Below, piece after piece: positions 1 through 46,433 of a stretch of DNA of 64,000 nt (position 1 is the stretch's first letter; each line of letters begins with the position of its first letter). A model generated the notes under the pieces. The model made no database searches. It saw only the letters and a list, made by a program, of their open reading frames with translations, and was not told the origin of the DNA. A program made the position numbers and the translations under genes. This DNA is from Methylocystis sp. KS32 (lineage in GTDB: Bacteria > Pseudomonadota > Alphaproteobacteria > Rhizobiales > Beijerinckiaceae): assembly GCA_002862095.1 (NCBI GenBank), contig PHSQ01000001.1, positions 992,001 to 1,056,000 on the forward strand, in the 5' to 3' direction.

Positions 1-3996
<3,996 letters not shown>

Positions 3997-42955: not shown

Positions 42956-42984
42956 CTTGAAAGTCGCGCGAGGCGTTCCCACCT
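42956..42984 (+). promoter_or_regulatory. RpoH (sigma-32) heat-shock promoter
   Basis: CTTGAAA (42956-42962) and TCCCACCT (42977-42984) are spaced by 14 bp and fit the sigma-32 consensus CTTGAAA-N13/14-CCCCATNT at all -35 positions and most of -10. It is placed about 60 bp before the GroES start, as in groESL operons. Confidence 0.65.
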
Positions 42985-43046
42985 CGCCGCCGAGGCTCGA
43001 GAAGGCCTCGCTTTCGTCATTTCAGACTTTCCTGGGGAGAAGCTTC

Positions 43047-43862
43047 ATGAAGTTTCGTCCATTGCAGGATCGCGTCCTCGTTCGTCGCATTGAGGCCGAC
43101 GAACGCAGCAAGGGCGGCATCATCATCCCAGATGCGGCCAAGGAGCCGCAGGAGGGAGAAATTGTCGCGACTGGAGCCGGCGCCTGCGACGACAGCGGAA
43201 AATTGATTCCTCTCGACCTCAAGGCGGGCGACCGTGTGCTGTTCGGCAAATGGTCCGGAACCGAGGTCAAGATCGAGGGCAAAGACCTGTTAATCAGGAA
43301 GGAAAGCGACATCCTTGGCGTGATCGAGGCGCCTGCCTCGAACCAGAAAAAGGCGGTCGGCGTCGCGGTGATCCGCGTCGGCGTCGCGACGGAAGTCGAA
43401 GTCAAGGAGAAGAAGGACCGCGTCGACGACGCGCTGAACGCCACCCGCGCCGCAGTGGAAGAAGGCGTTCTGCCGGGCGGCGGCGTCGCCTTGCTTCGCG
43501 CGCTGAAGGCGCTCGACGCGCTCAAGCCCGAGAATGGCGATCAGCGCACCGGCGTCGACATCGTTCGCAAGGCCATCCAATGGCCGGCGCGTCAGATCGT
43601 CGACAACGCCGGCGACGACGGCGCCGTCGTAGTTGGCAAGCTGATGGAGTCGAAGGATTATGGCTTCGGCTACGACGCCCAGAACGGCGTTTACGGCGAC
43701 CTGGTCAAGCTCGGCATCATCGACCCGACCAAGGTCGTGCGCACCGCGCTGCAGGACGCGGCCTCGGTCGCCGGACTGTTGATCACGACGGAAGCGATGG
43801 TCACCGAAGTTCCAAAAAAAGAATCCCCGCAGGCCCTGCCCGCCGGAGGGATGGACTACTGA
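43047..43862 (+). CDS. GroES fused in frame to the C-terminal third of GroEL (chaperonin chimera)
   Basis: A 271-residue in-frame chimera. Residues 1 to about 96 are a complete GroES ([60 protein letters not shown]). After a short join (PASNQKKA) the sequence continues as GroEL from about E. coli residue 375 ([41 protein letters not shown]) to a normal C-terminus ending GGMDY. About 370 GroEL residues are missing: the N-terminal equatorial ATP site and the whole apical domain. It cannot be a working GroEL; the GroES part could still work. Ribosome site GGGGAGAAG and heat-shock promoter are intact. Most likely a deleted second groESL copy; a selected fusion is not excluded. Confidence 0.9.
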
Positions 43863-44222
43863 TAAACTGCGGCGCTCGCTTCCACGGGCGCCGTTTTTCC
43901 GAAGGTAAGAGACTGGCGTGGGGCGATATGCTTTTGCGTCTTCTGCTCGTCATTTTCCTGATTGCTCCCACACCCCTTTTTGCCGGCGGTTTGCCGACAC
44001 ACGCCAGGGAATCCGTAGCTCCTGTCGTGCGCGCGGTGACGCCCGGCGTCGTCAATATCGCGACGCATAAAGTTGAATCGGTCGATGTTCCCCTTCTTCG
44101 CGATCCCTTGCTCGAGCAATTTTTTGAAATGCCGACTGCGCGCCTGCGGCGTGAGACGACCTCCGCCGGTTCGGGCGTCATCGTCGACGCCGAAAACGGT
44201 TATATCCTGACCAATGATGGAG

Positions 44223-44233
44223 TGGATGCCCCC
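44223..44233 (+). repeat. Left subterminal inverted repeat of the IS element
   Basis: TGGATGCCCCC, an exact 11-bp inverted match to 45608-45618. It begins 4-5 bp inside the left junction. Confidence 0.85.
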
Positions 44234-44314
44234 TCCTGACGGCATCGAATGTGCCAAGGTGGTGATGTTTTCGCATCCCACGAACGGAGAGAGCATCCAA
44301 CGGAGAGAGCATCC

Positions 44315-45349
44315 ATGGAACAGGTTAGCATCATCGGTCTCGACCTTGCAAAGCGCTCCTTCCAGGCGCACGGCGCCCTCGCCGACGGCGGCGTGGCTTT
44401 CCGCAAGAAGCTTTCCCGAGAGAAAGTTCTCGCCTTCTTTGCCGAGCAGCCACGCTGCGTCGTCGCCATGGAGGCCTGCGGGAGCGCGCACCATTGGGGA
44501 CGGACCATCCGCGACCTTGGCCACGAGGTTCGGTTGATCCCGCCCGCCTACGTCAAACCGTTCGTGAAACGCCAAAAGAACGATGCGGCCGACGCGGAAG
44601 CGATCGCCGAGGCTGCGGTTCGGCCGACGATGCGCTTCGTCGCGGTCAAGACCGAGGAACAGCAAGGGCGCGCCATGCTTTTCCGGACGCGCGATCTTAT
44701 GGTCCGGCAGCGCACGCAACTGATCAATGCGCTCCGCGGTCATTTGTCGGAGCACGGCGTCGTGGCCGCGCAGGGACCCGCGAATGTGAAAGTTCTTGCA
44801 GAGGCGGTCGAGGATCAGGGTCAGGGGACTTCGCTTCCGCTTCTCGTCGTGGAGTTGGCCCGTGTCTTCCTCGATCAGATCGAGGGGTTGTCGAAAAGGA
44901 TCTCCGAACTCGAGAAGGTGACGGTCCACGAAGCCGCGTGCGGAGAAACGACGCGACGTCTGCAGACGATGCCAGGCGTCGGCCCCATCACGGCCTTGGC
45001 GATCGAGACCTTTGCGCCGCCGATGGATGTCTTCAAACGCGGGCGCGATTTCGCCGCCTGGCTCGGGCTCGCGCCCCGGCAACATTCGACCGGCGGCAAG
45101 CAGGTTCTCGGAAAAGTCTCGAAGATGGGGCAGCGTGATATTCGTCGGCTGCTGATCATCGGCGCGATGGCCGTCGTCCGCTCGGCCTCGCGAAAGGGCG
45201 CCCCGGAGGGAAGCTGGCTGCAGCGCTTGCTGGCGCGCAAACCAAAGATGCTGGTGGCGATTGCGCTCGCCAACAAGATGGCCCGGTCGATCTGGGCCAT
45301 GCTGGCGAAGGCGGAGGATTATCGGGTTCCTGTGGCTGCGGCGGCCTGA
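44315..45349 (+). CDS. IS110-family transposase (IS1111 group)
   Basis: A 344-residue DEDD-type recombinase. The N-terminal RuvC-like domain is seen with Asp in IIGLDLAKRSFQAHG (about 6-20), Glu in VVAMEACGSAHHWG (about 50-63) and the DD pair in KNDAADAEAIAEA (about 88-100). The C-terminal Transposase_20 domain has MPGVGPITALAIETF (about 219-233) and the serine region WLGLAPRQHSTGGKQVLGKVSKMGQRDIRRLLI (about 250-282). No stop or frameshift is seen, so the element may be active. Start ATG 44315. Confidence 0.95.
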   Translation: MEQVSIIGLDLAKRSFQAHGALADGGVAFRKKLSREKVLAFFAEQPRCVVAMEACGSAHHWGRTIRDLGHEVRLIPPAYVKPFVKRQKNDAADAEAIAEAAVRPTMRFVAVKTEEQQGRAMLFRTRDLMVRQRTQLINALRGHLSEHGVVAAQGPANVKVLAEAVEDQGQGTSLPLLVVELARVFLDQIEGLSKRISELEKVTVHEAACGETTRRLQTMPGVGPITALAIETFAPPMDVFKRGRDFAAWLGLAPRQHSTGGKQVLGKVSKMGQRDIRRLLIIGAMAVVRSASRKGAPEGSWLQRLLARKPKMLVAIALANKMARSIWAMLAKAEDYRVPVAAAA

Positions 45350-45399
45350 TCGACAATCAGCCAAAGCAACCGGAGGACTGTCGGGCGTGTAGGGAGGTC

Positions 45400-45600
45400 G
45401 ACGAACGGTAAGGTCAAAATGATCGGTTAGATCTGGGTCTGGAAACGCGTTAACATGCACCGAGCTCGACAGCTCGCCCGAATGATCTGCGCCAGATCCG
45501 CTCATCTCCATACCGGCCAGCGGCCAGATCAGGCCGCTTACCAAGGCCTGATACATGACCGCATCCGATCACGCGGACCAAGTCGTTCGAAAACATCTTG
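45400..45600 (+). ncRNA. Candidate IS1111 guide RNA (seekRNA/bridge RNA)
   Basis: The non-coding 3' end of the element is densely structured. Perfect hairpins are CGAGCT-CGAC-AGCTCG (45461-45476), GATCTG-CGC-CAGATC (45484-45498) and AGCGGCC-N6-GGCCGCT (45519-45538). Candidate guides: AATGATC (45418-45424) shares AATGA with the left target flank; AACATGC (45452-45458) is the exact complement of the right target flank GCATGTT (45626-45632); AATGATC again (45481-45487) with CTCCAT (45506-45511, complement of ATGGAG) fits the element's joined ends. IS1111 elements are known to encode such an RNA here. RNA ends and fold are not determined. Confidence 0.55.
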
Positions 45601-45607
45601 CGCGAAC

Positions 45608-45618
45608 GGGGGCATCCA
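45608..45618 (+). repeat. Right subterminal inverted repeat of the IS element
   Basis: GGGGGCATCCA, the exact complement of the left repeat at 44223-44233; it ends 7 bp before the right junction. Confidence 0.85.
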
Positions 45619-46433
45619 TACATGAGCATGTTGTGAGAGGAGCCTCGATCGTCGAGGTCGCGACCAAGGACGACCGGCGCTTTCGCGCGAAGGTGATTGG
45701 GCGCGACAAGACCACGGACATCGCCGTTCTCAAGATAGACGCCAATCATCTTACCGCGGTTCCGATGGGCGACAGTTCTTCGCTGGAGGTTGGCGATTTC
45801 GTCCTTGCCATCGGCAATCCCTTTGGCCTCGGGCAAACCGTGACCTCCGGCGTCGTTTCCGCGCTCGGCCGCACTGGGCTTGGCATCGAAGGCTATGAGG
45901 ACTTCATCCAGACGGACGCCTCGATCAATCCCGGCAATTCCGGCGGCGCGCTGGTCACTCTCGATGGTCAGCTTGTTGGGATAAACACGGCTATCCTTTC
46001 GAAGTCAGGAGCCAGTAATGGCATTGGCTTCGCGATTCCAATCGACATCGCGCGCCACGTCATGCAGCAGCTTGTCCAAAATGGCGAAGTGCGTCGCGGG
46101 CATGTCGGTCTCGGGCTGCGGAATAGTCCTGATCGCGGCTCCGGAGAGGCTGGCGTCGAGATCGCTTCGGTTGAGACCGCGTCCCCGGCGGCGGCGGCGG
46201 GTCTCGAAAAGGGCGACGTGATACTCTCTTTCAATGGGAGGAGAGTCGGGAGCGCGAACCAATTGCGCGCACTGATCAGTCTCGCGCCCGTGGGTCAGGA
46301 AATCGACCTGCGCTACCGCAGAGGAGGGACGACGGCCGTGGCGTCGGTGCGCATTGCGGCAGGGGAAGCAAGAGCTGCGGAACGGCGCAAGAAGCCGTGA
46401 TCTCTCTCTTGGGCTCAAAGAGAGGGAACGCGG

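Follow-up and report, generated by a model that had tools for sequence, protein, structure and literature searches.

An IS1111-type insertion sequence in degP of Methylocystis sp. KS32 with a predicted, most likely bispecific guide RNA

Introduction

In 2024, IS110/IS1111 elements were described as inserting under the guidance of an RNA, a finding of interest to genome engineers. The window analysed here, the whole stretch of 64,000 nucleotides from Methylocystis sp. KS32, contains an element of ~1.4 kb between two halves of degP. This locus raises the question which segments downstream of the transposase gene read the insertion site, and whether the same RNA also reads the ends of the element, a point that is handled differently for IS1111 RNAs in the accessible parts of PMC11187229 and PMC11208160. 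A preliminary description had named four short segments as guides in the order left target, right target, left donor, right donor. Its strings are all present (AATGATC at 45418-45424 and 45481-45487, CTCCAT at 45506-45511 and a 6-bp hairpin at 45461-45476), and AACATGC (45452-45458) is indeed the exact complement of the right flank GCATGTT (45626-45632). The order that emerges from the data is a different one: right target, left target, right donor, left donor.

Materials and methods

The element's own genome, a set of 397 family genomes and the GTDB collection (80 loci) together contributed 129 loci. Of 130 full-length transposase hits, 38 were not used: the duplicate L020, two Brucella loci that were left out by choice (L057 and L105), and others with missing or unclear ends. 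Both ends were called for 92 elements, of which 82 remained once duplicates were removed (first set). The guide windows for the first set were picked after inspection of those same elements. The held-out set was composed of 16 plasmid records and five loci of an order-level search, none of which had been used to find the guide register; ends were usable in 15 of these 21 loci and not usable in six. The 15 are not all independent, since L175 and L176 have one target and some are kin of first-set elements. Matches of each element to its own flanks or ends were compared with matches to those of the other elements by permutation (2000, or 5000 for the held-out set). These permutations do not fully remove relatedness among the elements; to counter this, one representative per guide class was also used, as were the held-out elements and the co-substitution in L130 described below. 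Structure was analysed on an alignment (A1) of 47 elements with a protein identity of at least 64% and TG, CG or AG as left core, without duplicates and without three elements with shifted regions. Pairs of the outer helix were counted in 89 of 97 elements, duplicates and short regions being removed.

Results

An IS1111 element interrupts degP

The features of the locus are listed in Table 1. The proposed insertion inside degP was confirmed by comparison with congeners, as the gene is uninterrupted at this point in 10 of 10 loci compared, seven of which carry AATGA followed by GCATGT at the empty site. Relative to these ten loci no bases were added, and the exact crossover is ambiguous owing to a common ATGA. 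The ends were fixed by the flanks of the copies: the left junction reads ...TG/ATGGAG-repeat and the right one repeat-TACA-TG/..., so that one TG core is common to target and element. The core dinucleotide is identical at both ends in 75 of the 82 elements. Just upstream of the transposase start lies a 16-bp tandem duplication (44283-44314); copy L004 has 16 bp less between left repeat and start and appears to have a single unit of it.

Table 1. Position and basis of the features of the degP locus (coordinates in the window)
Feature	Position	Strand	Basis or remark
degP 5' part, interrupted	43928-44214	+	empty site in ten congeners
IS1111-type element	44217-45624	+	ends common to copies in differing flanks; single TG core counted, at the right end
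Left subterminal inverted repeat TGGATGCCCCC	44223-44233	+	11 bp, 100% complementary to 45608-45618
DEDD transposase gene, 344 aa	44315-45349	+	PF01548, PF02371
3' non-coding region with predicted guide RNA	45350-45607	+	sequence, guide and structure covariation
Outer helix enclosing both loops	45421-45426/45565-45570	+	covariation above shuffles
Stem closing the target-binding loop	45435-45442/45492-45499	+	7 of 8 pairs with two-sided changes
Right target guide AACATGCA, including core complement CA	45452-45459	+	covaries in 82 and 15 elements
Hairpin between target guides	45462-45475	+	paired in 98.9% of cells; two-sided changes in 3 of 4 pairs
Left target guide CCCGAATG, including core TG	45477-45484	+	left-target match; covaries
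Right donor guide CTCCAT	45506-45511	+	complements ATGGAG, left end 44217-44222; weak covariation
Proposed double hairpin between donor guides	45515-45548	+	92.1% of cells paired
Left donor guide TACATG	45552-45557	+	same strand as right end TACATG, 45619-45624
Right subterminal inverted repeat GGGGGCATCCA	45608-45618	+	pairs with left repeat
degP 3' part	45625-46400	+	trypsin-like and PDZ domains

The transposase scores 317 bits against the NCBIfam model NF033542 (IS110 family RNA-guided transposase; cut-off 140). Its translation contains GLAPRQHSTG, an instance of the C-terminal-domain motif GL-P----S(T)G that marks the IS1111 family in the accessible part of PMC11187229, and the perfect 11-bp subterminal repeats fall within the IS1111 range of 7-17 bp given in the part of PMC11208160 consulted. 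The longer non-coding side lies downstream of the transposase gene, with 258 nt from stop to right repeat versus 81 nt from left repeat to start. In the predicted RNA the top-strand match is located 5' of the bottom-strand match, which is the IS1111 rule and the reverse of the IS110 order (PMC11187229, part consulted). The arrangement of IS621-type elements, with left guide then right guide in each loop and the RNA 5' of the gene, was not found. By each feature tested the element belongs to the IS1111 family, and it is not an IS621-type IS110 element. An Rfam search of 44200-45640 returned no family up to E = 1.

Target guides follow the target across relatives

In the window alone the guide-like matches are near chance. 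A 7-nt complement of the right flank occurs in the same region for 5.6% of 19,500 random window sites, and such a complement together with a 5-nt left match for 2.7% of them. The preliminary argument that order and pairing make chance less likely gains force for the right target guide once relatives are included, and not from the window itself. In the 82 elements the right guide matched its own target at 6.52 of 8 positions versus 4.51 for the targets of others, and the left guide at 6.45 versus 4.51 (0 of 2000 permutations each). With 43 guide-distinct representatives the values were 6.44 versus 4.44 (right) and 6.21 versus 4.40 (left; 0 of 2000). The 15 held-out elements gave 7.13 versus 4.44 for the right guide and 6.27 versus 4.52 for the left guide, in both cases with 0 of 5000 permutations. 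When the core bases were excluded, own matches still exceeded others in the first set (right 4.96 versus 3.66, left 4.77 versus 3.57, of 6), hence the core alone is not the explanation. Poor fits of 3-5 of 8 were seen for the right guide in 17 and for the left guide in 14 of the 82 elements.

The positions are consistent as well. There were 56 cases in which the complement of core and right target matched at 7 or 8 of 8 positions, and in 46 of them its distance to the right repeat was 159-170 nt; for left target and core, at the same threshold, the distance was 135-147 nt in 43 of 54. A blind reading of the guides by the hairpin rule was possible for 67 of the 82 first-set and 13 of the 15 held-out elements. 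Without slack, own matches amounted to 10.87 versus 5.69 for others in the first set, where for 37 of 67 elements no other guide fitted better than their own, and to 9.62 of 16 versus 5.32 in the held-out set. With a register slack of plus or minus one base, introduced after register slips were noticed in the no-slack reading, the 13 held-out elements reached 12.77 of 16 versus 6.85. AACATGC(A) is very strongly placed as right target guide in 82 and 15 elements, and the proposal of an IS1111-type element with a guide-RNA-like region on its 3' side is upheld by guide-target covariation, by the held-out elements and by the covarying target loop.

The segments earlier assigned to the left side behaved differently. 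AATGATC at 45418, taken for the left target guide, matched own and other targets alike in the 82 elements (4.57 versus 4.48 of 8; 230 of 2000), without the core (3.73 versus 3.72; 954 of 2000), in the ten nearest kin (5.70 versus 5.54; 1491 of 5000) and in the held-out set (4.07 versus 4.36; 4940 of 5000). It sits in a conserved stem and does not follow the targets. Likewise AATGATC at 45481, taken for the left donor guide, gave 3.38 versus 3.42 in the 82 elements (1714 of 2000); it overlaps the end of the left target guide at 45477-45484.

Donor guides and the ends of the element

The left donor guide matched its own right end at 5.83 of 6 positions versus 4.71 for other ends in the 82 elements (0 of 2000 permutations), and at 5.93 versus 4.73 in the held-out set, where 14 of 15 elements were perfect (0 of 5000). 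Altogether 87 of 97 elements have their own right end at this position. Among the 17 different end sequences, 12 are matched there at least once; the five unmatched ones, each seen once or twice, make up six of the ten misses. CTCCAT retained the donor role that had been proposed for it, as right guide, with moderate to weak support from covariation. Its own match was 5.12 versus 4.79 in the 82 elements (0 of 2000) and 5.33 versus 5.00 in the held-out set (32 of 5000), and on 28 distinct donor pairs 19 of 2000 permutations reached the own match. The position tracks changes of the left end in part, and the right donor guide is the weakest of the four guides. We also noticed that bases 45485-45486, which follow the core of the left target guide, are AT in 66 of 86 elements, like the first two donor bases, and that L128 and L129 have TT in both places. 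These bases may be the counterpart of the IS621 handshake bases.

Compensatory changes in the predicted RNA

Six helices were proposed for the guide RNA. In the 47 aligned regions 94.8% of their cells are standard pairs and 15 of 28 pairs changed on both sides; in the target half alone 11 of 14 pairs have two-sided changes. Covariation of the whole structure was 0.294 versus 0.151 in shuffled alignments (0 of 500), and slid versions of the structure reached at most 0.066. The outer helix was not given by RNAalifold alone on the 47 aligned regions and was then tested by hand. By itself it yielded 0.170 versus 0.108 in shuffles (0 of 500). The donor-side hairpins counted alone did no better than shuffles (97 of 500), and the number of further pair types in the 47 aligned regions was not above shuffles either (174 of 500). 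In 35 of the 47 elements the last hairpin lacks a standard innermost pair. In the lowest-energy fold of the window sequence the donor half is paired differently from the proposed double hairpin, an alternative that leaves only 75.5% of cells paired in the relatives. Folding was stronger than in shuffled sequences, with z -3.1 for 45401-45575 and z -2.7 for 45415-45500. Compensatory changes support the structure of the target loop and the outer helix, not the donor hairpins. A two-state RNA, with 45421-45424 paired to either 45430-45433 or 45567-45570, was also considered. Both helices covary; a switch is not claimed because complete pairing of the near hairpin is seen in 53 of 89 elements versus 77 of 89 in which the four outermost pairs of the outer helix are all standard, and because the changed sequences look, by eye, largely like one clade. 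The target loop with its stem and a small 5' hairpin would measure ~85 nt, the whole RNA ~156 nt.

Copies, insertion sites and natural guide changes

The own genome holds four copies at 99-100% identity, including that of the window, and two at 86%. The non-coding region is identical in all four closest copies, which lie in degP and in IS256-type genes and have AATG and CATGTTG beside the core in common. Two of them, L002 and L004, stand in one duplicated context with an identical 597-bp flank and were therefore counted as one insertion; L003 is found in a second gene of the same IS256-type, with a flank 81% identical to that of L002 and L004. The left pieces of both interrupted target genes match the Mutator-family transposase profile, which we take to correspond to IS256. 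One 86% copy (L006) lies inside a gene with a DDE_3 domain.

At the IS256-type sites the right guide AACATGCA complements TGCATGTT at 8 of 8 positions, and the left guide fits at 6 and 7 of 8. At degP the left half GACCAATG agrees with the left guide at 5 of 8, and the right guide can be aligned with the right half TGAGCATGTT only by skipping two bases (AG). Contrary to the assumption that the guides match degP as their site, the best-fitting site known is a spot in the IS256-type (Mutator-family) transposase gene that holds copies with an identical RNA region. In view of the poor fit at degP compared with 8 of 8 there, the degP copy is probably an imprecise, off-target landing, a near-miss. 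In a search of the own genome for an intact IS256-type target gene, no match besides the interrupted copies covered the part beside the insertion. With one mismatch allowed, RAATGCATGTTGG has eight matches in this genome, all of them imperfect; three of these are right junctions of the element copies. Of 394 family genomes, 23 contain GCNGARTGYATGYTSGTS, a degenerate version of the IS256-type site.

Guides that change together with the target, an expectation raised with the first proposal, were found in a congener. L130 occupies the equivalent position in an IS256-type gene. On either side of the core its target deviates from that of L003 by a single base, and its guides AGCATGCA and CCCGAGTG both carry changes that match the altered target. 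The guide-RNA region of L130 is split by a stretch of ~830 bp (2720-3557), which lies in the right-guide loop between TTAG and CTAG; its ORFs presumably belong to an IS5-type transposase, and the stretch may disable this copy. L021 pairs guide TTAACGCCA with target TGGCGTTA at 8 of 8 positions, and the common guide TTAATGCCA of L005 and L006 fits two different targets at 7 of 8. Several relatives, including L058, L060, L069, L100 and L075, target a CTGTTGCACAAAT-like sequence, which to us resembles the termini of other insertion sequences. Targeting of other mobile elements may be frequent among IS1111 elements. Two more IS1111-like types, with 49% and 54% transposase identity, occupy three places each in the own genome (L007-L018).

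Discussion

Taken together, the comparisons make us rather confident that the degP element is an IS1111-type insertion sequence carrying its own guide RNA, and that this RNA is most likely bispecific. Comparison across relatives has shown that the predicted target guides and the predicted left donor guide covary with flanks or ends, the right donor guide weakly so. The region 3' of the transposase gene would be transcribed, and the transposase would bind the resulting RNA. This RNA could then pair with both target strands and with the joined ends of the element around the common TG dinucleotide core, and recombination at the core would lead to insertion in one orientation without target duplication. 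Beyond the single element, we lean towards the wider reading that a mostly alphaproteobacterial group has a fully bispecific RNA mirroring that of IS110, with right before left in both loops and a long-range helix that closes a multi-branched loop containing the donor guides; these guides and the core (TG, CG or AG) would evolve with the ends as the target guides do with the targets. If true, such a mirror-image RNA would unite what has been described as seekRNA with what has been described as bridge RNA: the short form would correspond to the target half, the long form to the complete molecule.

The most serious competitor of the bispecific reading, which we regard as unlikely, is that the RNA reads the target only and that the transposase recognizes the ends by way of the inverted repeats. 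In this view the TACATG-like segment at 45552 would be a side product, for example a copied end or a signal for processing. This target-only reading draws on the 82-nt seekRNA that is enough for movement of ISEc11 and may not include a donor loop, and on the remark of the ISEc11 authors that end recognition may differ between families (both in the accessible part of PMC11187229). The inverted repeats are conserved among the elements studied here, the right donor guide covaries weakly, and the donor hairpins do not exceed shuffles. Against this stand the agreement of the left donor segment with the own right end, core included, over most elements and most end sequences, and the covariation of the outer helix that encloses this segment.

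The two other readings have far less in their favour. The layout first drawn (left target 45418, right target 45452, left donor 45481, right donor 45506) is now very improbable, even though its strings exist, 45452 and, weakly, 45506 keep their roles, and 45418 fits the left target no worse than 45477 does in a few near kin (of 8, L002 6 and 6, L005 7 and 7, L022 8 and 7). Neither 45418 nor 45481 distinguishes own from other sequences in the 82 elements, 45418 fails likewise in the ten nearest kin and the held-out set, and a CAAATGATC-like sequence is retained at 45418 in elements with other targets. Recognition of the target by protein alone, the matches of the RNA region being due to chance or to flanking DNA copied into the element, could appeal to the near-chance match in the window (2.7% of random sites). 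We give it hardly any credence in view of the consistent positions, strands and order in most of the 82 and 15 elements, the co-substitution in L130 and the compensatory changes in the target-loop structure.

The bispecific reading can be set beside the systems known from the accessible parts of the literature. Like the IS1111 seekRNA elements ISEc11, ISPa11, ISKpn4 and ISPst6 (PMC11187229), the element combines a DEDD transposase, subterminal repeats and an RNA 3' of the transposase gene, with the top-strand match 5' of the bottom-strand match, a guide change between relatives and no target duplication. The predicted sizes agree with the published seekRNA lengths of 70-100 nt (short) and 145-170 nt (long; PMC11187229), which is suggestive only. 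Unlike those descriptions, the target site is not among the ones named in the part of PMC11187229 consulted, and a donor-guide pair is indicated here by covariation, whereas target matches only are given there. With the IS110 bridge RNA of IS621 (PMC11208160, PMC11208158, parts consulted) it would have in common four guides, a core within the guide pairings and a bispecific RNA; it differs in the reversed guide order of each loop, the RNA on the opposite side of the gene, the long inverted repeats and the donor guides in a proposed multi-branched loop. Like IS4321/IS5075, IS1111 members reported to target Tn21-family ends, it prefers another mobile element, but its target would lie inside an IS256-type transposase gene.

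The kind of element itself is already known, and the value of this member lies in the covariation that points to donor guides in IS1111. In a literature search that lacked most subscription papers and all preprints, nothing was found on IS1111 in Methylocystis, nor on IS1111 and a donor-binding loop beyond two Nature papers. The many natural sets of guide, target and donor, together with a co-substituted congeneric sister, make the question of end reading directly testable, and the group supplies a small natural reprogramming series. The degP copy suggests, in addition, that an element aimed at another mobile element can strike a host gene by a near-miss. Outside the element, a single ORF (42957-43862) combines a complete groES (Cpn10) with a C-terminal portion of groEL (positions 320-488 of 490 in the Cpn60 profile) and looks as if a groESL operon had been fused by an internal deletion.
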